A DNA stretch of 48,876 nt from Candidatus Paralachnospira caecorum (lineage in GTDB: Bacteria > Bacillota > Clostridia > Lachnospirales > Lachnospiraceae), in NCBI GenBank assembly GCA_904379015.1, contig CAJFHG010000019.1, positions 1 to 48,876 on the forward strand, written 5' to 3'. Shown in pieces: positions 12,363 through 34,800 of the stretch. A model generated the notes under the pieces. That model was not told the origin of the DNA and did no database searches. It saw only the letters and a list, made by a program, of their open reading frames with translations. Every line of letters starts with the position of its first letter. The stretch's first letter is position 1. The position numbers and the translations under genes were made by a program.

Positions 12363-14162
12363 ATGGATCTTTTTACATTTTTTGATTTCGGACAGGGAGG
12401 CGCCTGGGGCGGACAGAGGGAGAAAAGGGAAAGGCAGGCCAGACAGCCGAAGCCTCCGAAATGCGGGCCGGTGGCCAGGGTGCTGATCAGTCTGCTGATC
12501 ACGATTGTTTTCGGGGCTGTTTACTTTTACTTTCAGCTGCCGGCGCTGAATTTCCGGGATGAGGGATTTTATCTGTTTCTGATCCTGCTGTGCATTGTAT
12601 TTGCGGTCTGCATGGTGATCCTGCAGGGATTCCGCTCGAACTCGGTCAGGGAATATGTTTCCTATACAAAGAAGAACCTGATGATTCCTTTTGGGATCAC
12701 AGTGGTGCTGCTGGCTGTGCTGGCGGTGGGATCGGTGACCGGGTGGATCGTGTTCCGGGCGAAGGCTTATTCTGAGCTGATGCCCATGGAAGAGGGGGAT
12801 TTCTCGGCGGAAGTGGCGGAGATCGACTGGGACCAGATCCCGATGCTGGACGCGGATTCCGCCAATAATCTGGCCAACAGAAAGCTGGGCGAGCTGAGCG
12901 ATCTGGTCAGCCAGTTTACCGTGGACGACGCGTCGGCCCAGATCAATTACAACGGCCGGCCCGTCCGGGTGAATTATCTGAATTACAGCGGATTTTTCAA
13001 ATGGTGGAACAACCAGAGCGAAGGAATTCCCGCCTATATCATGATCGATATGCGGACGCAGGAGGTGGAAGTGGTCCGGCTGGAGGAACGGATCCGGTAT
13101 TCGCCCTCCGAGTATCTCAACCGGGATCTGAACCGTCATCTTCGCTTCCAGTATCCGACCTTCATGTTTGACGATGTCAATTTTGAAGTGGATGACAACG
13201 GCACGCCTTACTGGGTGGCGTCTGTGGTGGAAAAGCGGATCGGCCTCTTCGGCGGAAAGGATATCAAGGGAGCGGTGCTTCTCAATGCCGTCACCGGTGA
13301 ATCGGAATATTATGAGATCGCTGACGTGCCCACCTGGGTGGACCGGGTATATCAGGCGGACCTGATCATGGAGCAGTATGATTATTACGGCCAGTATCAC
13401 AACGGCTTCTGGAATTCCATCTTTGGCCAGAATGACTGTACGATTGCCACGGACGGATACAATTATATCGCTCAGGACGATGATGTGTGGGTTTACACAG
13501 GCGTCACTTCTGTAACGGACGACCGGGGCAATATCGGTTTTATCCTGGTCAATCAGCGGACAAAGGAGGCCCATTATTATTCCTGCGCCGGCGCGGAGGA
13601 GTATTCAGCCATGTCTTCGGCGGAGGGCGCGCTGCAGCAGTATCAATATACGGCCACATTCCCGCTTCTGCTCAATATTTCCGACCAGCCGACGTATTTT
13701 ATGGCCATGAAGGACGCGGCGGGGCTGGTGAAAATGTATGCCATGGTCAATGTGCAGCAGTACCAGATCGTGGCCACAGGCACCACAGTGGAGAACTGTC
13801 AGCAGAATTATCACGATCTGATGGTGGAAAACGGGATTCTGGAGGAAGAGGAAGCTGTGCCGGAGGGAACGGACGAAAATGGAAACGGACAGAGCGGAAC
13901 GGGACAGGACGGAACAGACCAGGAGCCGGAGCAGAGTGCGCCGGACGGAACGGTGACGGGCCGGATCGCGGAAATCCGCTCGGCGGTCATCGACGGCAAT
14001 ACCTGTTATTACCTGCGCCTGGAAAACTCGGAGGATTATTATACGGTGAACGCGGGAGAATATCCGGCCGCCGTGATCCTGAATGTGGGAGACCAGATCA
14101 CGATCTCCTATTACGGGGAAACCGGGCCGATCCGGGAAGGAACGGACCTGCGGACGGAATAA
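12363..14162 (+). CDS. Membrane protein of unknown function with C-terminal OB-like domain
   Basis: A 599-residue protein I cannot assign to a named family. It opens with a basic cytosolic segment (residues 1-35, rich in Arg, Lys, Gln), then three hydrophobic helices near 36-57, 68-90 and 105-130. The remaining 460 residues should be extracellular: a large acidic, Tyr- and Asp-rich domain with DQIPMLDADSANNLANRKLG and many aromatic strands, a Gly/Thr/Gln-rich linker around 495-520, and a last 70-residue segment (GRIAEIRSAVIDGNTCYYLR to ITISYYGETGPI) that reads like a small beta-barrel. It is a single-gene unit behind a consensus promoter, so it is probably well expressed. No catalytic motif is apparent. 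Confidence 0.8.
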   Translation: MDLFTFFDFGQGGAWGGQREKRERQARQPKPPKCGPVARVLISLLITIVFGAVYFYFQLPALNFRDEGFYLFLILLCIVFAVCMVILQGFRSNSVREYVSYTKKNLMIPFGITVVLLAVLAVGSVTGWIVFRAKAYSELMPMEEGDFSAEVAEIDWDQIPMLDADSANNLANRKLGELSDLVSQFTVDDASAQINYNGRPVRVNYLNYSGFFKWWNNQSEGIPAYIMIDMRTQEVEVVRLEERIRYSPSEYLNRDLNRHLRFQYPTFMFDDVNFEVDDNGTPYWVASVVEKRIGLFGGKDIKGAVLLNAVTGESEYYEIADVPTWVDRVYQADLIMEQYDYYGQYHNGFWNSIFGQNDCTIATDGYNYIAQDDDVWVYTGVTSVTDDRGNIGFILVNQRTKEAHYYSCAGAEEYSAMSSAEGALQQYQYTATFPLLLNISDQPTYFMAMKDAAGLVKMYAMVNVQQYQIVATGTTVENCQQNYHDLMVENGILEEEEAVPEGTDENGNGQSGTGQDGTDQEPEQSAPDGTVTGRIAEIRSAVIDGNTCYYLRLENSEDYYTVNAGEYPAAVILNVGDQITISYYGETGPIREGTDLRTE

Positions 14163-14406: not shown

Positions 14407-16776
14407 ATGACAGAGACAAAAAAAATAACATTAAAGGAGCTGCCGGTGGGAAAAACTGCCACGATCCGCTCAGTGGGCGGGGAAGGGGCCCTGCGGCAGC
14501 ATTTTCTTGATATGGGTGTGATCCCCACGGCCGATATTACCATGGTCAAGCTGGCGCCCATGGGGGATCCGGCGGAGTTCCGCATTCACAGCTACGAGCT
14601 GACCCTGCGGCTGGCGGACGCGGAAAAGATCGAGATCGAGAACATCAGGGACGTGCAGGGGCAGGAGGCGCCCCGGGAGCGGAAACCCTACATATCCCAT
14701 CCGGGTCTGGGTGAGGGCGGAAAATACCATGTGAAGGCGGACGAACACCCGCTTCCGGAAGGGGAAACTCTGACTTTCGCGCTGGCCGGCAATCAGAACT
14801 GCGGGAAAACAACGCTGTTCAACCAGCTGACCGGCTCCAACCAGCATGTGGGGAATTTCCCCGGCGTAACGGTGGACAGGAAGGACGGGCCGATCAAGGG
14901 CCATCCGGATACGCTGGTGACAGACCTGCCGGGCATCTATTCCATGTCGCCCTATTCCAGTGAGGAGATCGTGACCAGACAATATGTGCTGGATGAGCAT
15001 CCCAGGGGGATCATCAATATCGTGGACGCGACCAACATAGAGCGGAACCTGTGCCTGACCATGCAGCTGATGGAGCTGGACATTCCCATGGTGCTGGCTC
15101 TTAATATGATGGATGAGGTGAAGGAGAACGGCGGTTCCATCCGGGTCAACGAGCTGGAGGAAATGCTGGGGATTCCGGTGGTTCCCATATCCGCGGCGAA
15201 AAATGAAGGAATCCAGGAGCTGGTGGATCATGCCATTCATGTGGCAAAATATCAGGAGCGGCCGGGCCGGCAGGACTTCTGCGACGCCAATGATCACGGC
15301 GGCGCCGTCCACCGGTGTCTCCACGGGATCATGCATCTGATTGAGGATCACGCGAAAAAGGCGGGAATCCCGCTGCGGTTCGCGGCCAGCAAGCTGGCGG
15401 AAGGGGATCCGCTGGTGATGGATAAACTGGATCTGGATAAAAATGAAAAAGAAATGCTGGAGCATATTATCAGACAGATGGAGGAGGAACGGGGACTCGA
15501 CCGGGCGGCCGCCATCGCGGATATGCGCTACAGCTTCATCGAAAAAATCTGCCGGGAAACGGTGGTGAAGCCCAGAGAGAGCAAAGAGCATTCCAGAAGC
15601 GTGAAGATGGATAAGATCCTGACGGGAAAATACACGGCGATCCCGGCCTTCATCGCCATTATGGGCCTGGTGTTCTGGCTGACCTTCAATGTGATCGGAG
15701 CCTGGCTTTCCGGTCTTCTGGAGATGCTGATCGGCTGGCTGACGGACCTGACCGCCTCGGCGCTGGCGGCCGCCAATGTGAATGAAGTGCTCCGCTCCCT
15801 TGTGATCGACGGAATTTTCAACGGCGTGGGAAGCGTCCTGAGCTTTCTTCCCACGATCGTGACCCTGTTTTTCTTCCTGTCCATTCTCGAGGACAGCGGA
15901 TACATGGCCAGGGTGGCCTTTGTGATGGATAAGCTGCTGAGAAAGATCGGCCTGTCCGGCCGGAGTATCGTTCCCATGCTCATCGGTTTCGGATGCACGG
16001 TGCCGGGGGTCATGGCCAGCAGGACGCTGCCCTCAGAGCGGGACCGGAAAATGACGATCCTGCTGACGCCCTTTATGAGCTGCTCGGCCAAGATCCCGAT
16101 CTACGCGTTTTTTGCGGCGGCCTTCTTCCCCGGAAGGGGCGCTCTGGTGATGATCGAGCTTTATGTGATCGGCATTGCGGCGGGAATCCTCATGGCGCTT
16201 CTGTTCCGGAAAACTCTGTTTAAGGGGGAAGCGGTTCCCTTTGTGATGGAGCTTCCCAACTACCGGATGCCGGGAGCGAAAAACGTGGTCCGGCTTTTGT
16301 GGGATAAGGCGAAGGATTTCCTTCAGAGGGCCTTCACCATCATTTTTGTGGCAACGATCGTGATCTGGTTTTTGCAGACCTTTGATCCCCATCTGAATCT
16401 GGTGACAGATTCCAGATACAGCATTCTGGCAGTGGTCGCCAGTGTGATCGCGCCGGTATTCGCGCCGCTGGGATTTGGGGACTGGAGAATCTCCACGGCT
16501 CTGATCACCGGCGTGATGGCGAAGGAAAGCGTGGTCGCGACGCTTTCCATGCTGTTTGGCTCCACCGCCAATCTGGTGGCGGCCATCACGCCTCTGGCCG
16601 CGGCCAGCCTTCTGGTCTTCTGCCTGCTTTACACACCCTGCGTGGCCGCGGTGTCCGCGGTCAAACGGGAACTGGGCGGAAAATGGGCGCTGGGAGTCGT
16701 GGCGGGACAGTGCGTGATTGCCTGGATCGCCGCCCTGCTGGTGAGACTGATCGGAATGGCCTTCGGCCTCGGATAA
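14407..16776 (+). CDS. feoB: Ferrous iron transporter, FeoA-FeoB fusion
   Basis: A 789-residue fusion. Residues 1-78 are a FeoA/SH3-like domain (LKELPVGKTATIRSVGG, LRQHFLDMGVIPTADITM). A linker leads to the FeoB G-domain with G1 at 128-135 (GNQNCGKT), the switch NFPGVTVDRK, G3 DLPGIYSMSPYSSEE near 174 and G4 NMMDE. The membrane part has the two Gate segments GFGCTVPGVMASRTLPSERD and TPFMSCSAKIPIYAFFAAAF with their cysteines. It imports Fe(II), with GTP hydrolysis needed for activity. FeoA is normally a separate small gene; fusion is known in Clostridia. A Fur-like box overlaps the transcript start. The usual FeoB-associated Cys-rich membrane protein is not next to it but at 27523. Confidence 0.96.
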   Translation: MTETKKITLKELPVGKTATIRSVGGEGALRQHFLDMGVIPTADITMVKLAPMGDPAEFRIHSYELTLRLADAEKIEIENIRDVQGQEAPRERKPYISHPGLGEGGKYHVKADEHPLPEGETLTFALAGNQNCGKTTLFNQLTGSNQHVGNFPGVTVDRKDGPIKGHPDTLVTDLPGIYSMSPYSSEEIVTRQYVLDEHPRGIINIVDATNIERNLCLTMQLMELDIPMVLALNMMDEVKENGGSIRVNELEEMLGIPVVPISAAKNEGIQELVDHAIHVAKYQERPGRQDFCDANDHGGAVHRCLHGIMHLIEDHAKKAGIPLRFAASKLAEGDPLVMDKLDLDKNEKEMLEHIIRQMEEERGLDRAAAIADMRYSFIEKICRETVVKPRESKEHSRSVKMDKILTGKYTAIPAFIAIMGLVFWLTFNVIGAWLSGLLEMLIGWLTDLTASALAAANVNEVLRSLVIDGIFNGVGSVLSFLPTIVTLFFFLSILEDSGYMARVAFVMDKLLRKIGLSGRSIVPMLIGFGCTVPGVMASRTLPSERDRKMTILLTPFMSCSAKIPIYAFFAAAFFPGRGALVMIELYVIGIAAGILMALLFRKTLFKGEAVPFVMELPNYRMPGAKNVVRLLWDKAKDFLQRAFTIIFVATIVIWFLQTFDPHLNLVTDSRYSILAVVASVIAPVFAPLGFGDWRISTALITGVMAKESVVATLSMLFGSTANLVAAITPLAAASLLVFCLLYTPCVAAVSAVKRELGGKWALGVVAGQCVIAWIAALLVRLIGMAFGLG

Positions 16777-16923: not shown

Positions 16924-18408
16924 ATGGCATATCATGGATTTGCGATTGACAGATATCTGGACGCGGACGCGGTGACAAAGCAGCTGGACGAGCTGATCAA
17001 AAAACCGGTTTATTCGATCCGTCCGGATAAACTGGAAGATTATGTGGAGCATTATTTCAACAAGAAATGCGCCCGGTCAAAGGAAATGATCGAGAAGGCG
17101 AAGGAGGTCATTCCCGGCGGCGTGCAGCATAATCTGGCGTTTAATTATCCCTTTCCGATCGTGATCGAAAAGGCGGAGGGAGCGAAGCTGTATGACATCG
17201 ACGGGAACTGGTATTATGACCTGCTTCAGGCCGGCGGCCCTACGATCCTGGGCAGCAACGTGCCGGAGGTGCGGGAGCGGGTGATCGATCTGCTGAACAC
17301 CTGCGGGCCTTCCACCGGCCTGTTCCACGAGTATGAATACAAGCTGGCGAAGAAGATTTCGGAAATGGTGCCTTCGGTGCAGAAGTTCCGTATGCTGGGA
17401 TCCGGCACAGAGGCCTGCATGGTCGCTGCCAGGATCGCCAGACTCAAGACCGGGAAGAAGAATATCCTGAAAATGGGCGGCGCCTATCATGGATGGTCTG
17501 ATCAGCTGGCCTACGGCATCCGGGTGCCCGGAACCAAAAGCCTGCTTTCCAAGGGCGTTCCCGGCTTCGTATTCAAGCACACGGATGAATTCTTCCCCAA
17601 TGATCTGGAGGATCTGGAACGGAAGCTGCAGAGAAACCGTCTGAATGGCGGGACCGCGGCCGTTTACATTGAGCCGGTGGGACCGGAAAGCGGAACCAGG
17701 CCCGTATCGAAAAAATTCATCAAGGGCGCGGAGTGGCTGGCTCATAAATACGGAGCCCTTCTTGTCTTCGACGAGGTGGTCACAGGATTCCGCATCGGGC
17801 CCGGAGGCGCCCAGAGCTATTTCGGAGTGGATCCGGATCTGACCATTTTCGGAAAGATCATCGCCGGCGGCTATCCGGGCGCGGGCGGAGTCGGCGGCCA
17901 TGACGACTGTATGGCGTATCTGGGAGCCGGCCTGGATTCTTCCGGCAAAAAGGTATCCAAGGCCATGTGCGGCGGGACCATGGCGGCGACGCCCATTTCC
18001 TGCGTGGCCGGCTATTATACTCTGTGCGAGATCGAGCGCACCAACGCCTGCGAAAAGGCCGGACGGATGGGCGACAGGCTGACGAAGGGACTGCAGAAGC
18101 TGATCAGAAAACACGATCTGCCCTTTGTCGCCTTCAACCAGGGATCCATCTGCCATCTGGACAGCGTGGGGACCATGCATTTTTCCGTTAACTGGAAGAA
18201 GCCCTGGACCATTCCGGAGGTGCTGAAGCAGACCGGCATCCGCCAGAAGGAGATGGAGCACATGGGAGCCGCCTATATGGCGGAGGGCATTGTGACGCTG
18301 GCCGGATCCAGACTGTACACCAGCGCGGCTTATACAGAGGAGATGATCGACGACGTACTCGACAGGTTTGACAGAGTGTTTGAAAACTGCGGCCTGATCG
18401 AAGTGTAA
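16924..18408 (+). CDS. Class III PLP aminotransferase (glutamate-1-semialdehyde aminomutase-like)
   Basis: A 494-residue fold-type I PLP enzyme. Landmarks are MLGSGTEACMVAARIARLKT (phosphate-binding loop region), GGAYHGWSDQ, the PLP-nitrogen aspartate in LLVFDEVVTGFRIGPGGAQ, and the Schiff-base lysine Lys311 in FGKIIAGGYPGAGG. It is closest in feel to glutamate-1-semialdehyde 2,1-aminomutases, but has an N-terminal extension of about 60 residues and no heme-biosynthesis genes around, so it is probably an aminotransferase for a different substrate. I chose the ATG at 16924 after AGGAGGGAA; an upstream frame to 16843 lacks a site. It heads the block with an aldolase, FGGY kinase and deacetylase, consistent with removing or exchanging an amino group during catabolism. 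Confidence 0.88.
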   Translation: MAYHGFAIDRYLDADAVTKQLDELIKKPVYSIRPDKLEDYVEHYFNKKCARSKEMIEKAKEVIPGGVQHNLAFNYPFPIVIEKAEGAKLYDIDGNWYYDLLQAGGPTILGSNVPEVRERVIDLLNTCGPSTGLFHEYEYKLAKKISEMVPSVQKFRMLGSGTEACMVAARIARLKTGKKNILKMGGAYHGWSDQLAYGIRVPGTKSLLSKGVPGFVFKHTDEFFPNDLEDLERKLQRNRLNGGTAAVYIEPVGPESGTRPVSKKFIKGAEWLAHKYGALLVFDEVVTGFRIGPGGAQSYFGVDPDLTIFGKIIAGGYPGAGGVGGHDDCMAYLGAGLDSSGKKVSKAMCGGTMAATPISCVAGYYTLCEIERTNACEKAGRMGDRLTKGLQKLIRKHDLPFVAFNQGSICHLDSVGTMHFSVNWKKPWTIPEVLKQTGIRQKEMEHMGAAYMAEGIVTLAGSRLYTSAAYTEEMIDDVLDRFDRVFENCGLIEV

Positions 18409-18512
18409 ATCCGCGGATCAGCCGGGACCCTGCCGCGCGCGGCGGGCGCTTTCCGGCAGGTGGGAACGGGAGCGGGATCTGCCCGCCGGAGACGGGACAG
18501 GAGGAAGCAAGC

Positions 18513-19652
18513 ATGGCATATTCGGAAACAGAGGCCAGAAGACTGGTGGCAGAATCGGCGAAGCGTCTGCTGAATGCCGGCCTGGTGGCCAGAACATGGG
18601 GAAATATCAGTGCCAGGATCCCGGACGGCCAGTTCATCATCACGCCCAGCGGTATGGGATATGAACATATGGGGCCGGAGGATCTGGTGAAGGTCAGGAT
18701 CGAGGACTGCTCCTGGGAGGGAGACAGAAAGCCTTCCAGTGAGAAGGGCATTCATGCCGACGCCTACAGGCTGCGGCCGGAGGTGAATTTCGTCATCCAT
18801 ACCCATCAGGAGGCCGCTTCCATTTACGGCGTGACCGGCCGGACGCTGACGGGGCTGGAGTCAGAGTGCCTGGGCGCGGCGGTGCCCTGCGCGGAATACG
18901 GAATGCCCTCTACCGGAAAGCTGCGCCGGGCGGTGGCCCGGGCGCTGGAGGACTATCCGGATTCCAGGGCTGTCTTCATGCGTTTTCACGGAGCCCTCTG
19001 TGTGGGAGAGGACAGTGAGACCGCGTTTCAGGCAGCCAGGGAGCTGGAACAGGCCTGCGAAAGACAGATCGCGCTTTTGTCAGAGAAAAAAGACCGGGAA
19101 GAGCCGGAAGCTCCGGCCGATTATGGAAAGAGCCTGCGGAAGGGAAACCGGTTCTGCATTCTCTGCGGCGGCGAAAAGAAGGTTTATCACCTGAAGCGGT
19201 TGCCGAAGACCCTTGCCGGGGCGGCTGCTATTCATGCCCGGATCTATCAGAAAACAGATGCCGGCTGCATCATATGGAACCGGCAGGAGCCGGTCCGGGA
19301 AGTGAGCCGGACAGGAACAACAATCCGACCTTATCTGGAGGATCTGATCCAGATCGCGGGGACGGACATCCGGTGCGCGGACAGGATGTCGCCCGCCGGG
19401 ATCGTGAGAAGGCTGAAGGGACGCAGCGCCGTACTGGTGAAGGGACAGGGCGCCTTCTGCACCGGCAGGACGAGGGACGACGCGGAGGCGGCGGCCATTC
19501 TGCTGGAAAAGGGCTGCAGAGCGGCACTGTTCGCGGAGCACTTTCCGGACTGCAGTCCCGTGGGCAGGCTTGACGGCCTGATCCAGAGAATGGTTTATGT
19601 CCGGAAATACGCCCGCAAAAAGGAGGAGCAGCCAGGATGCACGAAAAGCTGA
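18513..19652 (+). CDS. Two-domain class II aldolase/adducin protein with degenerate second domain
   Basis: A 379-residue protein made of two copies of the class II aldolase fold. The first (about 1-195) is intact: TWGNISARIPDG, IITPSGMGYEHM, EKGIHADAY, the zinc histidines in VIHTHQEA, and the third in RFHGALCVG. The second (about 205-365) keeps the order IHARIYQKTDAGCIIWNRQE, YLEDLIQIAGTDIRC, VLVKGQGAFCTGRTRDDAEAAA but has no zinc ligands: HTH is replaced by WNR and the HG of the third site by QG. Members cleave or epimerise phosphorylated sugars, as L-fuculose or L-ribulose phosphate enzymes do. The downstream FGGY kinase fits as supplier of the phosphosugar. It overlaps the TetR gene by 16 bases. 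Confidence 0.88.
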   Translation: MAYSETEARRLVAESAKRLLNAGLVARTWGNISARIPDGQFIITPSGMGYEHMGPEDLVKVRIEDCSWEGDRKPSSEKGIHADAYRLRPEVNFVIHTHQEAASIYGVTGRTLTGLESECLGAAVPCAEYGMPSTGKLRRAVARALEDYPDSRAVFMRFHGALCVGEDSETAFQAARELEQACERQIALLSEKKDREEPEAPADYGKSLRKGNRFCILCGGEKKVYHLKRLPKTLAGAAAIHARIYQKTDAGCIIWNRQEPVREVSRTGTTIRPYLEDLIQIAGTDIRCADRMSPAGIVRRLKGRSAVLVKGQGAFCTGRTRDDAEAAAILLEKGCRAALFAEHFPDCSPVGRLDGLIQRMVYVRKYARKKEEQPGCTKS

Positions 19653-20299
19653 CGGAGGGAAAGCTGGCGCAGATCCTGGAGGCGGGGATCTGTGAATTTG
19701 CCTCCAAAGGTATGGAAAAGGCCAGTATGAGGGCCATTGCGAAGCGGGCCGGCATCAGCGTGGGTGTGCTGTATAAATATTATTCCGATAAGGAAGCGTT
19801 TTTTCTGGCCTGTGTCAGGCGAAGCACGGAACGGCTGGAACAGGCTCTGAAGGAGGTGCTGGAGGATCCGGATGACAGGCTTCTGTCCTGCGCGGACCGG
19901 GTGATCCGGGTGCTTCAGCGTCATGCGGCGGTGCATGGAAATGACATCCGCATGTACCATGAGATTACTTCCGGGAGAGACAGCAGCCGCGCTGCGGCCC
20001 TGGCGGGAGAAATTGAAACGGTAACGGCTGAGTTATATACTGCTATCATAAAGAAGGCGCAGAAGGAAGGACATGTCAGAGAGGACATGGATCCCGGAAT
20101 GTTTGCCTTCTTTTTTGACAATCTGCTGATGATGCTTCAGTTCAGCTACTGCTGCGATTATTACAGAGAACGCTGGAAACTGTACGGAGCCGGGAGCCGG
20201 AAGCCGGATGATGAGCAGGTGCGGCGGGAGCTTTTGAAATTTATGGAATCGGCCTTTACATTTGAACAGTCAGAGATCCGGCATCATGAGGATCTGTGA
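19637..20299 (+). CDS. TetR/AcrR-family transcriptional regulator
   Basis: A 220-residue TetR-type regulator. The DNA-binding domain is at residues 1-55: KLAQILEAGICEFASKG, then MRAIAKRAGISVGVLYKYYS and DKEAFFLACVRRS. The C-terminal ligand and dimer domain is helical (ALKEVLEDPDDRLLSCADRV to MFAFFFDNLLMMLQFSYCCD). Start ATG at 19637 lies inside the end of the aldolase gene and is preceded by AAGGAGGAG, so it is co-translated with that gene. It is placed between the aldolase and kinase genes and is the likely local regulator of the block, with its ligand probably a pathway intermediate; this is inferred from position only. Confidence 0.9.
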   Translation: MHEKLTEGKLAQILEAGICEFASKGMEKASMRAIAKRAGISVGVLYKYYSDKEAFFLACVRRSTERLEQALKEVLEDPDDRLLSCADRVIRVLQRHAAVHGNDIRMYHEITSGRDSSRAAALAGEIETVTAELYTAIIKKAQKEGHVREDMDPGMFAFFFDNLLMMLQFSYCCDYYRERWKLYGAGSRKPDDEQVRRELLKFMESAFTFEQSEIRHHEDL

Positions 20300-20341
20300 A
20301 TCCATGAATGCCGGATGAAGGAAAGAGGAGGGGATGAACAG

Positions 20342-21937
20342 ATGATCTATGTTCTGGCTTATGATATCGGGACGACGGGCGTTAAAACCTGTCTGTTCAG
20401 AATTGATGAGACGATCACCCTGCTGGCAGGCGTGAGCAGGGGATATGGCCTCTATATCCTGGAAAACGGCGGAGCGGAGCAGGATGAGGAGGAATGGTGG
20501 CAGGCTGTCTGCGGCACCACAAAGGAATTGTTCGATCAGACCGCGGTCAGGCCGGAGGAGGTGGCCGGCATTTCCTTCTGTTCCCAGATGCAGGGACTCA
20601 TCCTGGTAGACCGGGAGGGAAAGCCGGTCCGGCGTCCCATGAGCTACATGGACCAGCGGGCGCGGGAGGAGATCAGAAAGGGACTGGCCTACGGCCCTCA
20701 GATCGCCGGGGCCAATATTTTCCGCCTGATCCGGTGCCTGCGGCTCACAGGGGCCGTTTCCACCAGTGTCAAGGATCCCATGTGGAAATACAAGTGGATC
20801 GAAGCCCATGAACCGGATCAGTTCAGACGGGCGGACAAGTGGCTGGACGTGAAGGAATATCTGATCCGGCGGCTGACGGGCAATTGTGTCATGACGGAGG
20901 ATTCTGCCTTTGCCACTCTGCTCTATGATACCAGAAAGGGAAAGGAAGGATGGAGTGAGGCGCTCTGCCGCATGTTCGGGGTGAAGATGGAGCATCTCCC
21001 GAAGATCATCCGGTCTTCTGACCAGGCGGGAACCCTGACAGAGCAGGCAGCGGCGGAGCTGGGACTTCCCGCGGGGATCCCCGTGTTCGGCGGCGGGGGC
21101 GACGCCTCCCTGATCGGTGTGGGGTCCGGCTGTGTTCAGGTGGGAGAGACCCATATTTACTGCGGCACTTCCGGATGGGTCGGGACGGTCACAGACCGGC
21201 AGCTGGTGGATGTCTCCGCCATGATCGCGGCCATCGTGGGAGCCCAGAGGGGCCGCTATAATTATTTCGCGGAGATGGAGACGGCCGGAAAATGTCTGGA
21301 ATGGGTAAAGGATCATCTGGCGCTGGATGAGATCGGAATTTATCTGGAAAAAGTCCATGTGGCAGAAAGCCACGAGGCAGTTTACAGGAGTCTGTATGAT
21401 TATATGACGCAGGTGGTGGAGCAGGCGCCGGCAGGTGCGGGCGGTGTGATCTTTACGCCCTGGCTGCACGGAAACCGGTGTCCCTTCGAGGATCCGGCAG
21501 CGGCGGGCATGTTTTTCGGCATCCGCCTGGAAACGGGAAAGACAGAGCTGATCCGGGCCGTGCTGGAGGGAATCTGTTATCATCTGCGCTGGATGCTGGA
21601 GTGTGAGGAACGGAAGGTGAAAACCTCGCCGGTGATCCGGTTTGTGGGGGGCGGTGCTCTGTCCCCGGTGACCTCCCAGATCCTGTCCGATGTCACGGGA
21701 CGGGTCATTGAAGTGGTGGAAAGTCCTCAGAATGTAGGAGCTGTGGGAGCAGCCGCAGTGGCTGCTGTTGGTCTGGGTGTCATCGAGAGTCTGGATCAGG
21801 TGAAAGATTTTATTCCGGTATCCCGCCGCTTTGAGCCGGATATGGAGAAAAAAGCGGTATACGACAAATATTTTGAAGTATTTAAAAAACTCTATCAGTC
21901 CAATAAAAAGATTTTCAGGAGGCTTCAGTATGAATAA
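20342..21937 (+). CDS. FGGY-family carbohydrate kinase (xylulokinase-like)
   Basis: A 531-residue sugar kinase. The N-terminal phosphate loop is YDIGTTGVKTCLF, the substrate side has ISFCSQMQGLILVD and RRPMSYMDQRA, and the catalytic aspartate lies in GGGGDASLIGVGSG. The C-terminal signature is FVGGGALSPVTSQILSDVTG. It phosphorylates a pentulose, hexulose or related polyol; the exact sugar cannot be told from sequence. I take ATG at 20342, which follows AGGAGGGG, over an ATG at 20315. The stop overlaps the GtrA start by eight bases. With the class II aldolase upstream the pair makes a kinase-then-aldolase route, the standard plan for fucose, rhamnose or ribulose-type sugars, but the isomerase expected in such routes is not present in the block. 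Confidence 0.92.
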   Translation: MIYVLAYDIGTTGVKTCLFRIDETITLLAGVSRGYGLYILENGGAEQDEEEWWQAVCGTTKELFDQTAVRPEEVAGISFCSQMQGLILVDREGKPVRRPMSYMDQRAREEIRKGLAYGPQIAGANIFRLIRCLRLTGAVSTSVKDPMWKYKWIEAHEPDQFRRADKWLDVKEYLIRRLTGNCVMTEDSAFATLLYDTRKGKEGWSEALCRMFGVKMEHLPKIIRSSDQAGTLTEQAAAELGLPAGIPVFGGGGDASLIGVGSGCVQVGETHIYCGTSGWVGTVTDRQLVDVSAMIAAIVGAQRGRYNYFAEMETAGKCLEWVKDHLALDEIGIYLEKVHVAESHEAVYRSLYDYMTQVVEQAPAGAGGVIFTPWLHGNRCPFEDPAAAGMFFGIRLETGKTELIRAVLEGICYHLRWMLECEERKVKTSPVIRFVGGGALSPVTSQILSDVTGRVIEVVESPQNVGAVGAAAVAAVGLGVIESLDQVKDFIPVSRRFEPDMEKKAVYDKYFEVFKKLYQSNKKIFRRLQYE

Positions 21938-22382
21938 GAACCGTGCCCGGAACAAAGAACTGCTCAGATCTCTTAAATTCCTGCTCTTTTCCATATCGGC
22001 GGGAATCATTGAAATCGCAGTCTTCACCATTCTCAATGAACTGACCGGATGGAGCTACTGGCCCTGTTATCTGATCGGCCTGGTGCTCTCGGTGCTCTGG
22101 AATTTTACCCTGAACAGGCGGTATACCTTCCAGTCCGCCAGCAATGTGCCTGTGGCCATGGTGAAGGTGTTTGTGTTTTACTGTGTATTTACGCCTCTGT
22201 CCACAGTCCTGGGCAATTTCCTGGCAGAGGAGCTGCTCTGGAATGAATATCTGGTGACGGTGCTCAATATGGCGGCCAATTTTATTCTGGAATTTCTGTA
22301 TGACCGGTTTTTTGTGTTCCGGGACAGCATCGACACCAATGATCTGGCCCGGAAGAAGGCAGAGGGAATGCCGGGAAAATAA
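21930..22382 (+). CDS. GtrA-family membrane protein
   Basis: A 150-residue GtrA-like protein with four hydrophobic helices (near 14-34, 41-60, 78-97 and 104-124). The family look is clear in LLFSISAGIIEIAVFTILNE, LSVLWNFTLNRRYTF and FILEFLYDRFFVF. GtrA proteins are thought to help flip polyprenyl-linked sugars for surface glycosylation. The ATG at 21930 overlaps the kinase stop by eight bases and is preceded by AGGAGG, so its translation is coupled to that kinase. That is an odd partner: glycan flipping and sugar catabolism do not usually share a transcript. The protein may have another transport role here. Confidence 0.85.
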   Translation: MNKNRARNKELLRSLKFLLFSISAGIIEIAVFTILNELTGWSYWPCYLIGLVLSVLWNFTLNRRYTFQSASNVPVAMVKVFVFYCVFTPLSTVLGNFLAEELLWNEYLVTVLNMAANFILEFLYDRFFVFRDSIDTNDLARKKAEGMPGK

Positions 22383-22400
22383 GAAGAATGGAGGAGGATC

Positions 22401-22868
22401 ATGTTATATACGGTTGGGGAAATGGCGAAGAAACTGAACGTGGCGCCTTCGACGCTTCGTTATTATGACAAAGAAGGCCTGCTGCCCTGCGTGGAGCGTT
22501 CCGGAACAGGAACGAGAATGTTCAGCGACCGGGACTATGAATGGCTGAGAATGATCGGCTGTCTCAAGCGGTCGGGCATGTCCATCAAGAATATCAAACG
22601 CTTTACAGACTGGTATATGGAAGGCGATTCCACCATCGGATGCAGGCTGGAGCTGATCAGGCAGCTGGAGGAGGAAACGGTCGGAAGGCTGCGGCAGCTG
22701 GAGGACACGCTCAGTATCCTGGCCTACAAGCGCTGGTATTATGAGACTGCCGAGGAGGCAGGGACCTGCGATGTCCATCATGAAACGGCGGAGGAAGAGA
22801 TTCCGGAGCCGTTCCGGGAGGGATGGAGAAAGGTCAAAGGACTGGAAGAGAAAGCCGGGAGGAGGTGA
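22401..22868 (+). CDS. MerR-family transcriptional regulator
   Basis: A 155-residue MerR-type regulator. Residues 1-70 hold the winged helix domain: YTVGEMAKKLNVAPSTLRYY, DKEGLLPCVERSGTGTRMFS and LRMIGCLKRSGMSIKNIKRF. A coiled-coil helix follows (RLELIRQLEEETVGRLRQLE) and a short tail with a few Cys and His residues (TCDVHHETAEEE). It resembles the aldehyde-responsive AdhR-like branch more than metal-binding MerR proteins, although the tail contains one Cys and two His. Start ATG at 22401 follows GGAGGA. It lies between the GtrA gene and a PIG-L deacetylase, five bases from the latter. It is the second regulator in the block. Confidence 0.88.
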   Translation: MLYTVGEMAKKLNVAPSTLRYYDKEGLLPCVERSGTGTRMFSDRDYEWLRMIGCLKRSGMSIKNIKRFTDWYMEGDSTIGCRLELIRQLEEETVGRLRQLEDTLSILAYKRWYYETAEEAGTCDVHHETAEEEIPEPFREGWRKVKGLEEKAGRR

Positions 22869-22872
22869 CGCG

Positions 22873-23718
22873 ATGCCTGGCATACGGAAGACGGATATTT
22901 TTATTCCATCAGGGGAAGAGGCAGAGACAGCCTTTGCCCGTACTACGGATCTGGCCGTAGGCGCGCATCCGGACGATGTGGAACTGATGGCGGTTCACGG
23001 GATTCTTGCCTGCTACGGCAGAGAGGACAGAGCCTTTTCTGCCGTTGTGCTGAGCAATGGAGCGGGATCTCCCAGAAACGGGAAATTTCAGGATTTCAGC
23101 GACCGGCAGATGGCCGAGGCGAGGATGAAGGAACAGAAAAAGGCGGCCATCATCGGAGAATATGCCGCTGTGGTTCAGATGGGCTTTTCCAGCCGGGCGG
23201 TGACGGATCCGGATCATTCCGGACTGACGGAGGAGCTGGCGGAGCTGATCCGGAAAATGCGGCCGAGGACCATGTATATCCATAATCCGGCGGACCGCCA
23301 TCTGACCCATGTGGCGGCCTGCATGCGGGCCATTGAGGCGCTTCTCAGCCTGGATCCGGCGGACCGGCCGGAACGCCTGTACGGCTGTGAGATATGGCGT
23401 TCCCTGGACTGGATGGAGGAGAAAGATCGGACAATCCTCGATACCTCCGGCTATGAACAGCTCAAGGCGGAGCTGATCCGGGCGCACCGTTCCCAGGTGG
23501 AGGGAGGAAAGCGCTACGACCGGGCCTCAGAGGGCAGACAGCGGGCCAATGCCACCTTTCTCGCGTCCCACAGGACAGACAGGATGAGCGCTGCCGCCTG
23601 TGCCGTCGATCTGACGCCGGTCCTTTCCGGAGCAGACGTGGAGGATTACATAACGGGCGCCATAGACCGGTTCCGGGAGGACGTGGTCCGGAAAATTCGG
23701 TCAGTTCGCCGTGGATAA
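22873..23718 (+). CDS. PIG-L family (LmbE-like) zinc deacetylase
   Basis: A 281-residue PIG-L/LmbE-type N-deacetylase. The zinc motif AHPDD is at His32, Asp34 and Asp35 in AVGAHPDDVELMAVHG, and the second half of the site is in IHNPADRHLTHVAACMRAIE, where the usual HPDH is replaced by NPADRHLTH. The rest follows family order with ILDTSGYEQLKAELIRAHRS. Members remove acyl groups from N-acetylglucosamine-type sugars or their conjugates, or hydrolyse similar amides. Start ATG at 22873 comes eight bases after GGAGG, which also forms the MerR stop region. Its place in the block with an aminotransferase and kinase suggests an N-acylated amino sugar or conjugate as substrate, which is an inference. 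Confidence 0.88.
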   Translation: MPGIRKTDIFIPSGEEAETAFARTTDLAVGAHPDDVELMAVHGILACYGREDRAFSAVVLSNGAGSPRNGKFQDFSDRQMAEARMKEQKKAAIIGEYAAVVQMGFSSRAVTDPDHSGLTEELAELIRKMRPRTMYIHNPADRHLTHVAACMRAIEALLSLDPADRPERLYGCEIWRSLDWMEEKDRTILDTSGYEQLKAELIRAHRSQVEGGKRYDRASEGRQRANATFLASHRTDRMSAAACAVDLTPVLSGADVEDYITGAIDRFREDVVRKIRSVRRG

Positions 23719-23740
23719 AACGCGTTTCCTGTGATATAAT
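23712..23740 (+). promoter_or_regulatory. Possible extended -10 promoter before the SDR-like gene
   Basis: A TG-A-TATAAT extended -10 (TATAAT at 23735-23740) with a weak -35 TGGATA at 23712-23717. It would drive the SDR-like and FMN-dependent genes apart from the upstream block. Confidence 0.55.
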
Positions 23741-23802
23741 TGTCAGATAGAAAAGAGGAAGCGCCGCGGATCTGAGACTGCGGCGGAGAACTGGAGGGTG
23801 CT

Positions 23803-24486
23803 ATGCTGAAAGGGAAGATTGCGGTCATAACCGGCCAGGCGGGAACGATCGGCTGCGCGGCGGCGGGGATATTCCTGGAAAAGGGCGCTTCTGTGATCCT
23901 GTGCGGTTCCGGACCGGAGACGGAAGCGGCGGCCCGGGCGCTGGCAGAGCAGTTCCCGGAGGGAAAGGTTTCAGGCGTGAGGACAGATCTGTCCCATTAC
24001 GCGGAAGTGGAAGAGTGTATGGATCAGATCCGGGAGGAGTTCGGAGGGATCGATATCCTGGTCAATTACGCGGGGCTTTCTCCGGAGGAGGGGCCGGACG
24101 GAGACAAGGCGAAGGATTTCAAGCGGCTGATGGAATATAATGTGGAGGCTGTATTCAACTGTTCCAGAGCCGCCGCCGTCCATATGCGTCGCCAGAAGAG
24201 CGGCGTGATCGTCAACGCGGGGTGGCTGGCTCAGGACGCCGGGGAAGAATGCTGGTACGGATACGCGGCGTCGGGAGCCGCGGTCGGATCTCTTACGGTA
24301 TCCATGGCGAAAGAGCTGAAGCAGGATGGGATCCGGGTCAACGCGGTGGCCGTGGGAAAGGGAGCCTGCGGCGACGCGCAGGGGATCGCCCGGCTGTTTC
24401 TGTTTCTGGCCAGCAGCCAGTCCTCCTGCGTGACCGGCGCAGTCGTGCCGGCGGTGGGATGGAACGATGTCTCTCCGCGCGGCTGA
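23803..24486 (+). CDS. SDR-fold protein lacking catalytic Ser and Lys
   Basis: A 227-residue Rossmann protein of the classical short-chain dehydrogenase type. The nucleotide motif is VITGQAGTIGCAAAGIF, the structural NYAG follows (NNAG in most), and NVEAVFNCSRAAA keeps the helix-4 Asn. The active site is broken: the catalytic Ser position is Trp141 in VIVNAGWLAQ, and the YxxxK motif reads Tyr154-Ala-Ala-Ser-Gly158, so the lysine is glycine. With only the tyrosine left it is unlikely to be an ordinary dehydrogenase. It might bind a nucleotide and serve as a regulator or partner, or use other residues. It is 43 bases upstream of the FMN enzyme. Start ATG at 23803 follows a weak GGAGGGTG. Confidence 0.82.
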   Translation: MLKGKIAVITGQAGTIGCAAAGIFLEKGASVILCGSGPETEAAARALAEQFPEGKVSGVRTDLSHYAEVEECMDQIREEFGGIDILVNYAGLSPEEGPDGDKAKDFKRLMEYNVEAVFNCSRAAAVHMRRQKSGVIVNAGWLAQDAGEECWYGYAASGAAVGSLTVSMAKELKQDGIRVNAVAVGKGACGDAQGIARLFLFLASSQSSCVTGAVVPAVGWNDVSPRG

Positions 24487-24528
24487 AACATATACGCAGT
24501 ATAAATGATCAATAAGGAGGAAGGTATT

Positions 24529-25545
24529 ATGACGTATCAGGAAGTATTGGAACAGGCAAAGGATTGTATCGGGAAGTACTGCAGGGCATGTCCTGTCTGC
24601 AATGGGAGGGCCTGCCGGAACCAGATCCCGGGACCGGGCGCCAAGGGCGTCGGGGACACGGCAATCCGAAATTATGACAAATGGCAGGAAATCCGCGTCA
24701 ATATGGATACGCTCTGCGAAAACGAGCCGGTGGATACAGGACTTTCCCTGTTCGGGAAACAGTTCCGCTATCCCTTCTTCGCGGGGCCGGTGGGCGCGGT
24801 CAATCTTCATTACGGGAACAAATACAGTGATGAAGCCTACAATGATATTCTGGTTTCTTCCTGCGCGAAGGCGGGAATTGCCGCTTTTACGGGGGACGGG
24901 ACAGACCCGGCGGTGGTGAAGGCGGCGGCAGCGGCCATCGGAAAGGCCGGGGGACTGGGGATTCCCACGATCAAGCCCTGGAACCTGGAAACCGTGCAGG
25001 AAAAGCTTCAGCTGGTGAAGGACGCGGGGGCTTTCGCGGTGGCGATGGACGTAGACGCGGCGGGCCTTCCGTTCCTGAAGAATATGACGCCCCCGGCGGG
25101 ACGCAAATCTGTTGCCCAGCTGCGCGAAATCGTGGATTCCTGTGAAGGACTTCCGTTTATCGTGAAAGGGATCATGACCGTGAAGGGGGCCATGAAGGCA
25201 AAGGAGGCCGGCGCGTCGGCGATCGTGGTCTCCAATCACGGCGGACGTGTGCTGGATCAGTGCCCTTCCACGGCGGAGGTGCTGGAAGAAATCGCGTCGG
25301 CGGTGGAAGGTTCCATGAAGATCTTCGTGGACGGCGGGATCCGGTCCGGCACCGATGTGTTCAAGGCTCTGGCGCTGGGGGCGGACGCGGTGATCATCGC
25401 GAGACCCTTTGTGACGGCAGTGTACGGGGGCGGCGCGGAAGGCGTGGCGGCCTATGTGGAAAAGATCGGCGGAGAGCTGGCCGATGCCATGTCCATGTGC
25501 GGCGCGTCTTCTCTGAAGGATATCTCCAGAGATATGGTAAGATAA
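24529..25545 (+). CDS. FMN-dependent alpha-hydroxy acid dehydrogenase/oxidase-like protein
   Basis: A 338-residue TIM-barrel flavoprotein of the lactate oxidase and glycolate oxidase superfamily. The substrate and flavin motif SNHGGRVLDQCPSTAEVL is present, as is the phosphate-binding stretch IFVDGGIRSGTDVFKALALG and ARPFVTAVYGGGAEGV. The N-terminus carries five cysteines (CIGKYCRACPVCNGRAC, about residues 10-26), a feature I know from clostridial members, which may hold a metal or cluster. Start ATG at 24529 follows AAGGAGGAA; an in-frame ATG at 24505 lacks a site. In an anaerobe it more likely works as a dehydrogenase than as an oxidase. It closes the accessory block after the SDR-like gene. 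Confidence 0.88.
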   Translation: MTYQEVLEQAKDCIGKYCRACPVCNGRACRNQIPGPGAKGVGDTAIRNYDKWQEIRVNMDTLCENEPVDTGLSLFGKQFRYPFFAGPVGAVNLHYGNKYSDEAYNDILVSSCAKAGIAAFTGDGTDPAVVKAAAAAIGKAGGLGIPTIKPWNLETVQEKLQLVKDAGAFAVAMDVDAAGLPFLKNMTPPAGRKSVAQLREIVDSCEGLPFIVKGIMTVKGAMKAKEAGASAIVVSNHGGRVLDQCPSTAEVLEEIASAVEGSMKIFVDGGIRSGTDVFKALALGADAVIIARPFVTAVYGGGAEGVAAYVEKIGGELADAMSMCGASSLKDISRDMVR

Positions 25546-25624
25546 CAGGCACGAAGGATTCCGGAACACCATGCAGAGCTCCGGGAGCGCGTGCCGCGAA
25601 TATATGCGGAAGGCGGTTTTGAAC

Positions 25625-26128
25625 GTGCGCAATCAATTGACAGAAAAAGATGTAAAGCGGATCGAGGAAGAGATTGAGTACCGGAAGCTGGTGGTCCGGA
25701 AGCAGGCCATCGAGGCGGTCAAGGAGGCCAGAGCGCAGGGAGATCTCAGCGAAAACTTTGAATATTACGCGGCGAAAAAAGATAAGAATCAGAATGAAAG
25801 CCGGATCCGCTATCTGGAACGGATGCTGAAGAATTCAGATGTGGTATCTGAGGATTCCAGAGAAGATGAAGTGGGCCTCAACAATACGGTGACCCTTTAT
25901 TTTGAGGACGACGACGAGGAAGAAACCTATAAGCTGGTCACTTCTGTCAGGGGCAATTCCCTGAAGAACTACATCAGCACTGAATCTCCCATCGGCAGCG
26001 CCATTCTGGGGCATAAAGTGGGGGATACGGTACATATTAAGGTAAATGACAATTTCGGCTACGATGTGGTCATCCGCTCCATTGAAAATACGCAGGATGA
26101 CGGGAGCGACAAGCTGAGAAGTTTTTGA
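25625..26128 (+). CDS. greA: Transcription elongation factor GreA
   Basis: A 167-residue Gre factor. The N-terminal coiled coil is IEEEIEYRKLVVRKQAIEAV with the acidic tip region EARAQGDLSENFEYYAAKKD, and the C-terminal FKBP-like domain holds YKLVTSVRGNSLKNYISTES, then SPIGSAILGHKVGDTVHIKV. Gre factors stimulate transcript cleavage in stalled RNA polymerase. The start is set at GTG 25625 because the family usually opens a few residues before LTEKDVKRIEEE; an ATG at 25604 and one at 25571 are possible but extend the protein with unrelated sequence. It lies in a housekeeping stretch beside a ZIP transporter. Confidence 0.93.
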   Translation: MRNQLTEKDVKRIEEEIEYRKLVVRKQAIEAVKEARAQGDLSENFEYYAAKKDKNQNESRIRYLERMLKNSDVVSEDSREDEVGLNNTVTLYFEDDDEEETYKLVTSVRGNSLKNYISTESPIGSAILGHKVGDTVHIKVNDNFGYDVVIRSIENTQDDGSDKLRSF

Positions 26129-31829: not shown

Positions 31830-34800
31830 ATGAGAAGGAAATGGCTTCATTCGGCAGCGGCAATTGCGCTTGCGGCCGCGATGGGAGTCTCTTCCCTCAG
31901 CGGGGCCTTTACGGTCTACGCCGCAGGATCTGAAAATCCGGTCCTGTCATCGGAAGAGCTGACTTCCGCCGAAGAAAGTACTTCCGCACAGGAGGCAGAG
32001 GAGACTTCCTCGGCAGCTTCCACGGAAGAGACACAAAATGAAGAGACAACAGCTGTACAGGAGGAAACAACACAGCAGACATCAGATGAGACGCAAGAAT
32101 CGTCCTCTGAAGAACAGCAGAGCACGGAAGCGCTCTCAGAATCAGTTCCTGCGGAGACAGAGACATCCGCGGAAAATGAGATCATATCTGCCCAGGCGGC
32201 CACACAGCCCGGCGCGTCGCCCCTGATCGTTACAGAAATTGTGCCTGTGGCAGGCCCCAGCGGATCCAGACTGACGTATACAGAGGTGTACAACAATTCT
32301 GACGCCACCATCAATATGGGCGAGTATACCTTTTATTATCAGTATCCCAACGGTGGCGGACAGGTATGGAATACGGGAGATTTTAATATTGAGCCCGGTG
32401 AGTGCATTGTTCTCTGGCAGAGCAATTCTTCCAGCTGGACCGTAGAAGATTTCAATGCTTACTATGGAACAGATCTGGTAGAGGGGGAAGACATTTACCG
32501 GATCAACTACGGCGGCATTCACAGCACCGATAGAAGAGGATTCGCCTTCGGCCGTGACGAGGACAGCATCATCGCCTATGCGGAGTGCAACGTGGACGGC
32601 GCGGATATCGCAAGTGCGGACCGTCAGAACGGATGGGCTGTTCAGTACGAATATCCGGGCATTGGAACCACCTCCTATAAGAGCGAGGTATCTGACGCGA
32701 CTCCCGGCACAGTAGCGGATTGGCAGGTTCCCGCTGAAAAGGTACACTATGAGAGCCCGGCGGCGGTGAGCATTTCCGAGGTAAATGGCCCTGAAACGGC
32801 GCAGAACGATGCGGTGACTGTGACGGCAAAGATCACGGGAAATCAGGGCGGCGCCGCAGTGAAGCTGCATTTTGTCCAGGGACCGGGAAATGAGGAGACC
32901 GTCGATATGACCTATGTGGACGGCACAGATACTGTGACAGCCACGATTCCCTCCGAGCTTCTCTGGGACGATCAGATCAGCTGGTATATCACAGCTTCCT
33001 ATGGGGAAGAGACAGCCTTTGCCCAGAGCGACAGTTATACAACAAATGTACAGTATCCGGAGCTTTCTGATGAGGAGAAGGCCCCTCTGGTCGTGACGGA
33101 GGTCGTGACGCCTCCCACTTCTACCGGAGAGTACGCGGGCAACACTCAGTTTTCCTATGTGGAACTTTACAACCGCACCAGCAGCCCGGTCAACTACGGA
33201 TATTTTTATCTGTTCTATGAGTACACCAACACGACCACTGCCGATAAACAGTGGAGCTGCAGCGAACCGGTCATGATGATCGAGCCCGGAGAGACACTGG
33301 TGGTGTGGCTGACCAGCAACGGCAATACGGTGGAGGATTTCAACACGTTCTACGGAGTGGATCTGGTAGAGGGCGAGGATATTGTGACCATTAATTATGC
33401 CGGCTTCCACAATACTCAGTGGCGTACCCTGAAATTCGGCCGTTCCGCGGATACTATTTTCGCGAGGGCCCAGTTCAATATCAATGGAGTCGCTTCCATC
33501 GACAGCGACGGCCAGCACTCCATCCAGTATACGTATCCCAGAACAGCCGACGGAGAGAGCCTGATTGTATCCACCGATATGGCGCCAAGCCCCGGCACTG
33601 TGGAGGACTGGCAGGTGCCGGATGAGCTTTCCAATTTTACCGGATACGCAGGTTATCCCGAGGATGACGGAACGGCGCCCAGCCTGAGCCTTCATGACAC
33701 CTGCCCTACTACCATCATGGAAGGCGATCAGATCAAGGTGATCTTTGACATCTCCGACAATATGGGGCTGGTGGGAGAACGGGTCCATTACCGTCTGGAT
33801 GGCGGAGAATGGCAGTACACGACTGAGAGCAACACAAGAGTTCCCTATTATTATGTGGCTCAGATTTCGGCGGATGTGCTGTTCGGCCACGACAATGTGG
33901 AATTTTACGTGGAGGCTTTCAACAACTTCAGAAGCACAACGACGCCCATTTACAGCGTGGATATCCAGCGGCTGAATGATGTGAACGGCGTCCGTCTCAA
34001 CGTGGCTGACGACACCATTTTAAGCGGCGTGACCACGATCACGGCAAACGACGGCGGCAGCAATGCGGACACTAAGATCCAGATTGACGGGCAGGAAGTG
34101 GAGACCATCCCCATGCTGGAGGACGGCGCTTACTTCGCCTTCACTGCCACGGACAGAAACTCTTATTTCAAGAACGCGGTGACTGCGCCCTACGGAGACA
34201 ATGAGAGAGAGATCATTTCCTATGTGGTAAGCTGGGGCAATGACACAGATTCCAAGGCAGTCCATATTGACAACAAATACTTTACCTACAATGAGGAAAA
34301 AGACTGCTACGAAGTGACGCTGACCATGTGGGCCGGCGATTCCGGAACTCCCTTTGAGGATATTTATCTTCCCTCTGAGAACCATGAGGATTATAAGGTG
34401 AGCCAGGTCAGACTGATGCTGGCCAACGGAAAGACCTATCTGCCTACCGAGATCGGTCCCGATGATCCGGAAACCAGTGCGAAAACAAACCTGAGCACAG
34501 CTCTGTCAGCAGTGCACAGCATCGGCGACAGCTCCGGCTGGTGCCCGAGAATGGATGTAACCTTTGAGATTCCCGCGTCTGATGTGACAGCGGTGGGATA
34601 TGAGCTGGATACCACGGCGCTGTCTGACGGCGTTCATACCATTACAGCCACGGCAGGCAGCAGAACAGACACAGCCGAGGTGATCGTAGACAATACCATT
34701 CCTGTGATCAATATGGGGATTGAAGAGGGCGCCCAGATGACAGGAACTCTGACCATTGATCCTCAGGTGACAGACGCGAACGGCCTTGCCGCCATGAGTG

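Follow-up and report, generated by a model that had tools for sequence, protein, structure and literature searches.

A recurrent aminotransferase, aldolase and kinase module in scattered gut bacteria that may act on a phytosphingosine-type substrate

The window, that is, the whole 48,876-nucleotide stretch of DNA analysed here, is contig 19 (CAJFHG010000019.1) of the 2.59 Mb, 55-contig genome of Candidatus Paralachnospira caecorum (assembly GCA_904379015.1). Between positions 16924 and 25545, it carries nine genes that all lie on one strand (+) and are separated by short gaps or overlap. The first five of these genes encode a class III aminotransferase with a HemL-like fold (hereafter AT3; 16924-18408, 494 amino acids (aa); Pfam Aminotran_3, 2e-49), a class II aldolase (18513-19652, 379 aa; Aldolase_II, 3.2e-57, in two stretches), a TetR-family regulator (19637-20299; TetR_N, 1.4e-14), an FGGY-family carbohydrate kinase (20342-21937, with an alternative start at 20315; FGGY_N, 6e-46; FGGY_C, 2.8e-30), and a GtrA-type small membrane protein (21930-22382; GtrA_DPMS_TM, 1.7e-14). 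We tentatively propose that these five genes (16924-22382) comprise a mobile catabolic module and that its substrate is of the phytosphingosine type. The four genes that follow encode a MerR-family regulator (22401-22868; MerR_1, 6.6e-21), a PIG-L-family deacetylase (22873-23718; PIG-L, 3.3e-16), a short-chain dehydrogenase (SDR; 23803-24486; adh_short, 2.9e-41), and an FMN-dependent dehydrogenase family protein (24529-25545; FMN_dh, 1.3e-66).

The families were assigned by Pfam and NCBIfam profile searches of the block proteins, which bore out the families and gene order given in the initial annotation of this DNA (where GtrA and SDR had been left unnamed) as well as its statement that the block includes neither an isomerase nor a transporter of a known sugar system. 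None of the core proteins reaches the cut-off of the NCBIfam models shown; for example, the TetR protein scores 46.8 against a cut-off of 201.3, and the GtrA protein 19.4 against 50. Neither promoter-like matches (4, compared with 3.9 in shuffles) nor terminator-like matches (8, compared with 7.6) exceed the shuffled background.

We compared 31 AT3 loci from 28 genomes and 2 plasmids, namely, the window, three named contigs reached via the aldolase, 25 loci from 24 further genomes, and the two plasmids. The loci were picked by similarity to AT3 (or the aldolase), and the counts thus describe what accompanies AT3 rather than how common the set is. AT3 itself is rare: counting the genome of the window each time, the family sample gave 6 of 200 genomes at E<=1e-150, the order sample 7 of 344 and the class sample 9 of 341 (both at 1e-130), and the phylum sample 6 of 398 at 1e-120. 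By clustering, the FGGY kinase is present in 29 of the 31 loci, TetR in 23, GtrA in 14, and an aldehyde dehydrogenase (ALDH) in 10, whereas the class II aldolase is present in 28, that is, 27 by clustering and one as a fusion with a major facilitator superfamily (MFS) transporter in the locus L059. Direct comparison of the window proteins to the 30 other loci (E<=1e-10) yielded homologs of the aldolase in 27, the kinase in 28, TetR in 19, and GtrA in 13. The loci without the kinase or the aldolase either lie at the end of a contig or encode a RuBisCO-like protein; furthermore, L081 starts at AT3 and L068 stops 79 bases past it, so that absent neighbors in these two loci are uninformative. Given the rarity of these genes, chance falls far short of explaining the co-occurrence of AT3, the kinase, and the aldolase. 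Four class II aldolase loci that lack AT3 at the threshold applied (L037-L040) showed neither an FGGY nor an AT3 relative across the fetched stretches; querying plasmids with the Burkholderia AT3 retrieved only the two plasmids already in the set, and no description of such a cluster or pathway appeared among the matches listed in full-text literature searches.

The other four genes of the block do not follow AT3. At the same threshold, homologs of MerR, PIG-L, and SDR are absent from all 30 other loci, and the FMN enzyme has a homolog in only two (L008 and L010), where it lies upstream of the module together with GreA. Thus, MerR, PIG-L, and SDR are neighbors outside the conserved module, and the FMN enzyme travels with GreA, not with the module. 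The initial annotation had treated all nine genes as one possible new catabolic pathway, as their single strand and short or overlapping gaps might indicate; we rejected such a nine-gene unit on these counts and regard a pathway that would include PIG-L, SDR, MerR, and the FMN enzyme as very improbable. What survives of that proposal is the core of AT3, aldolase, TetR, kinase, and GtrA: five of the nine genes are kept together in relatives and four are not. The two regulators were correctly assigned to their families, and TetR recurs with AT3 but MerR does not; similarly, the proposed removal of nitrogen is retained for the aminotransferase and lost for deacetylation by PIG-L, and the suggested processing of a lactate-type product by the FMN enzyme finds no support. 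The opposite extreme, that the genes share no pathway and were transferred together by chance, would accommodate the rare and scattered distribution and the two plasmid copies. It seems to us scarcely credible, considering that the association survives changes in gene order and the exchange of one kinase type for another and spans 29 of the 31 loci.

The FMN dehydrogenase and GreA (24529-26128 in the window) comprise a pair that is 84-88% identical in L008 and L010 and is placed differently relative to the module. In both these loci, relatives of a 599-aa protein of the window without a Pfam match (12363-14162) lie directly upstream of this pair.

The nearest named relatives of the window AT3 belong to Lachnospiraceae. 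In the AT3 tree, in which the long rows L072, L078, L069, and L065 are insecurely placed, a Butyrivibrio plasmid (pNP243 of Butyrivibrio fibrisolvens D1) and members of other families are placed among the Lachnospiraceae rows, which suggests horizontal transfer, and the order of the genes varies between clades of AT3 loci. The pairwise identities of AT3 correlate with those of the aldolase (Spearman 0.783, 351 pairs) and those of the kinase (0.535, 406 pairs), although the pairs are not independent. In four loci (L058, L059, L065, and L078), identity to the window kinase falls to 32-37%, whereas that to the window AT3 remains at 52-59%, a pattern to be expected if AT3 supplies the substrate to any kinase that happens to be recruited.

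AT3 is the only enzyme dependent on pyridoxal phosphate (PLP) that Pfam detects in the block, and no PLP enzyme of the sphingosine-1-phosphate (S1P) lyase type was found there by the same searches. It resembles HemL, the glutamate-1-semialdehyde (GSA) aminomutase, in fold and in its closest solved structures, which are GSA aminomutase and D-phenylglycine aminotransferase. Unlike HemL itself, AT3 scores below the cut-offs of the HemL models of NCBIfam (272.5 against 398 and 252.8 against 527.3) and has no counterpart of the arginine in the substrate motif of HemL, which we take to be the substrate arginine: this position aligns to a gap in AT3, and the 30 rows that have letters there read HNL. 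Conversely, the arginine in the GSRLYTS motif of AT3 is kept in all 31 sequences and presumably lies near the carboxylate site of the co-substrate in class III transaminases, with the alignment uncertain by 1-2 residues. Because the HemL arginine is absent and the GSRLYTS arginine is conserved, AT3 looks like a true transaminase. A HemL function of AT3 was rejected on the same scores and the missing substrate arginine.

The aldolase consists of a FucA-like N-terminal domain with an intact metal site and a degenerate second aldolase domain. Among the 27 aligned aldolases, a set that leaves out the L059 fusion, Asn31, Ser46, Ser75, Glu77, His96, His98, and His159 are invariant, and Ser76 is kept in 22; these residues, which were matched to positions of FucA, include the three metal histidines and the catalytic glutamate of a Zn-dependent class II aldolase, together with three phosphate-site residues. 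The two halves match each other by profile comparison with 99.2% probability, and in the window protein, the second half has WNR and QGA in place of the HTH and HGA of the first half and lacks the metal ligands. At least 370 aa are found in 15 of the 27 aldolases, and two (217 and 223 aa) have a single domain, so that the second half is dispensable. The scores of the aldolase are 134.1 against a cut-off of 251 for the best NCBIfam model, 73.5 against 400.25 for fucA, and 76.5 against 137.05 for MtnB. The kinase is closest to FGGY enzymes of the xylulokinase type (299.4 against 380.25 for XylB) and far from L-fuculokinase (101.7 against 470.9; both NCBIfam), and its catalytic aspartate in a GGGD motif is present in all 29 sequences. 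The fucose or rhamnose pathway was rejected given how far both proteins fall under the cut-offs of the fucose models.

In two relatives, a 256-aa protein and a PfkB-type kinase are encoded upstream of AT3 (L008:6488-8348 and L010:3771-5631). A relative of this PfkB-type kinase (72%) is found on another contig of the genome of the window (G000:C8:17033-18001).

Taken together, these features make it likely that the core follows a logic of transamination, phosphorylation, and cleavage. A cut of the FucA type needs a phosphate at C1, a keto group at C2, and hydroxyls at C3 and C4, and we accordingly propose a 2-amino-1,3,4-triol as the substrate. AT3 would move the 2-amino group of this triol to a keto acid, which would yield a 2-keto-1,3,4-triol, that is, a ketose with an alkyl tail; the FGGY kinase would phosphorylate the C1 hydroxyl of the keto product; the FucA-like aldolase would split the C3-C4 bond, producing dihydroxyacetone phosphate (DHAP) and a fatty aldehyde, which would be pentadecanal in the case of a C18 base; and a class 3-type ALDH would oxidize the released aldehyde. 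An isomerase would not be needed because removal of the 2-amino group beside a CH2OH gives a ketose directly. We infer the order of the steps, the substrate, the products, and the roles of the TetR and GtrA proteins; an involvement of GtrA in lipid translocation is a guess.

Phytosphingosine (4-hydroxysphinganine), a lipid base of the gut lining, plants, and fungi, is the common long-tailed 2-amino-1,3,4-triol in nature and has the D-ribo configuration. It fits a FucA-type aldolase because the D-ribo arrangement would leave a D-erythro pair at C3-C4. PMC6079011 describes this pair (3R,4R) as the product of FucA-type aldolases. The base would also be available to gut bacteria since phytosphingosine ceramides are abundant in the mouse stomach and small and large intestine (PMC10140171). 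We consider phytosphingosine or a close sphingoid base a plausible, albeit far from assured, substrate. Substrates of the chloramphenicol base type were dropped as these would lack the beta-hydroxyl required for aldol cleavage.

Two partners, an ALDH of the fatty aldehyde class and an Mpo1-like DUF962 protein, were predicted ahead of testing; a ceramidase test was conceived later. The ALDH of L032 matches class 3 enzymes, with the best hit to 6k0z, which is named only an aldehyde dehydrogenase (1.9e-145), and a match to human fatty aldehyde dehydrogenase, 4qgk (1.4e-111); it is the only one of the ten ALDHs compared with solved structures, the other nine being 35-52% identical to it. The block in the window itself contains no ALDH, and one of this kind is encoded on contig 29 of the same genome. 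Next to the Burkholderia copy of the module, there is a DUF962 gene (Pfam, Mpo1-like, 2-hydroxy-palmitic acid dioxygenase). Among the transporters, the MFS protein adjoining the L034 aldolase is closest to FLVCR2 and FLVCR1, which are named choline/ethanolamine or heme transporters, and a relative of this protein is the one fused to the aldolase in the single 635-aa open frame of L059 (4876-6783); a symporter in L066 is closest to the sodium-dependent transporter 4us3, presumably MhsT; and in L082, an ABC transporter of the branched-chain amino acid type follows the ALDH. These recurring partners point to a hydrophobic amino alcohol rather than to the N-acylated or amino sugar favored in the initial annotation.

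The neutral ceramidase domain (PF04734) was searched in 25 genomes with AT3 and 25 without, and later in three more AT3-containing genomes and the two plasmids; these last three genomes and two plasmids yielded no match. Altogether, a strong neutral ceramidase was found in 4 of the 28 AT3-containing genomes (G213, G369, G534, and G997), from four families, and in none of the 25 controls; the protein of G534 carries both ceramidase domains. The hypergeometric probability is 0.055 for 4 of 25 against 0 of 25 and about 1e-4 against 0 of 190 or 0 of 217, where the larger numbers are estimates and relatedness is uncorrected. At E<=1e-20, a ceramidase was found in one of 226 genomes of the class, namely, G534, which has AT3; the AT3 status is known for only some of the 226. 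Three of the four ceramidase genomes (G213, G369, and G534) encode a divergent kinase, to which G534 adds a copy of the main type.

Several observations weigh against phytosphingosine. A strong ceramidase is lacking in 24 of the 28 AT3-containing genomes and in the genome of the window, no module gene occurs in the stretches fetched around the four ceramidases, and one genome without AT3 (G198) yields a weak ceramidase match (32.5 bits; cut-off 32.1). Within the family, the occurrence of an ALDH is not tied to that of AT3 (4 of 6 genomes with AT3 and 80 of 194 without), and the best NCBIfam model for the ALDH, below its cut-off, is the benzaldehyde dehydrogenase MdlD, so that an aromatic aldehyde is a possible substrate of this enzyme. 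The Mpo1-like gene is located on the opposite strand, 80 bases beyond the ALDH, and adjoins an IS5 transposase, and the known Mpo1 reaction requires oxygen. The transporter families vary among the loci and include a GPH-type (sugar-type) symporter in L072 (210.2 bits, under the cut-off of 231.35), and FLVCR carries the name of a heme transporter too.

The same chemistry could act on a soluble amino polyol or an (N-acyl) amino sugar, which would be deacylated, deaminated by AT3 to yield a ketose, phosphorylated, and split by the aldolase, with the ALDH oxidizing a short or aromatic aldehyde. The affinity of the kinase to xylulokinases, the L072 symporter, and the scarcity of ceramidases are all compatible with such a substrate, as is a D-aminoacylase-type amidohydrolase that adjoins the module in L032 and L065, one solved relative of which is named a carbohydrate de-N-acetylated protein; in the genome of the window, the L032 amidohydrolase has just a 36% match over residues 3-88 (E 1.2e-4). 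However, the block has no sugar isomerase, the transporters beside other copies are of the FLVCR, SNF, and branched-chain amino acid ABC types, and the tested ALDH is of class 3; moreover, deamination of ordinary amino-sugar alcohols would produce fructose or tagatose, for which a special aldolase would be needless. On balance, we consider a soluble substrate unlikely, although it deserves to be taken seriously.

We think it improbable that the module instead resembles methionine salvage, where the kinase would be followed by dehydration or enolization of a 1-phospho-ketose or a 2,3-diketone, and AT3 would be the final transaminase. This possibility is raised by RuBisCO-like proteins that replace the aldolase beside AT3 in L065 (6531-7844) and L072 (2886-4346), with scores of 391.4 and 365.7 bits against the cut-off of 409 for 2,3-diketo-5-methylthiopentyl-1-phosphate enolase, and by a HAD phosphatase that follows AT3 in L065. 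Yet only these two of the 31 loci, both among the most divergent AT3 rows, show the replacement, and both lie near contig ends, so that an aldolase farther out is possible; besides, the aldolase of the module scores far under the MtnB cut-off and keeps the FucA-type glutamate. Under the phytosphingosine hypothesis, a 2,3-diketoalkyl 1-phosphate derived from a base without the 4-hydroxyl would be an analogous substrate for the RuBisCO-like branch.

In the established degradation of sphingoid bases, sphingosine kinase and then S1P lyase, which also occurs in bacteria, produce phosphoethanolamine and an aldehyde. The module resembles this route in combining a PLP enzyme, a kinase, and C-C cleavage to a fatty aldehyde, but would rely on transamination, a kinase of the sugar type, and a metal aldolase and yield DHAP instead of phosphoethanolamine. 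The yeast and mammalian route for phytosphingosine runs via 2-hydroxypalmitate and Mpo1, an oxygen-dependent step; it shares the substrate and the C15 product proposed here, whereas the route proposed for the module would involve no such step. The kinase, the FucA-like aldolase, and the formation of DHAP and an aldehyde are features in common with the catabolism of L-fucose and L-rhamnose (PMC6079011); in contrast to those pathways, the module lacks an isomerase, its aminotransferase would supply the ketose, and its enzymes score far under the fucose models. 5-Deoxyribose salvage (DrdK-DrdI-DrdA) likewise ends with a FucA-like class II aldolase that releases DHAP and an aldehyde after a kinase step, but its kinase and isomerase are paralogs of methionine salvage enzymes, unlike the FGGY kinase and aminotransferase of the module (PMC6079011).

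If the substrate is indeed phytosphingosine, gut anaerobes would use sugar-type chemistry to turn a major lipid base of the host, plants, and fungi into an odd-chain fatty aldehyde and carbon for glycolysis, and the module would serve as a genetic marker of sphingolipid degradation by microbes and might be a source of C15:0. More speculatively still, Clostridia of the gut and rumen might share with a plasmid of a rhizosphere Burkholderia a mobile, oxygen-independent, sugar-style route from phytosphingosine to DHAP and pentadecanal and then the C15 acid, without the chemistry of S1P lyase or Mpo1, with the RuBisCO-like sister branch perhaps taking bases that lack the 4-hydroxyl. Even with another amino triol as the substrate, the aminotransferase-first logic would account for the absent isomerase.

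Elsewhere in the window, a single protein with FeoA and FeoB domains (Pfam) is encoded immediately upstream of the block (14407-16776), and a 1786-aa protein (31830-37190) combines lamin-tail, calcineurin-like phosphoesterase, and S-layer homology domains.

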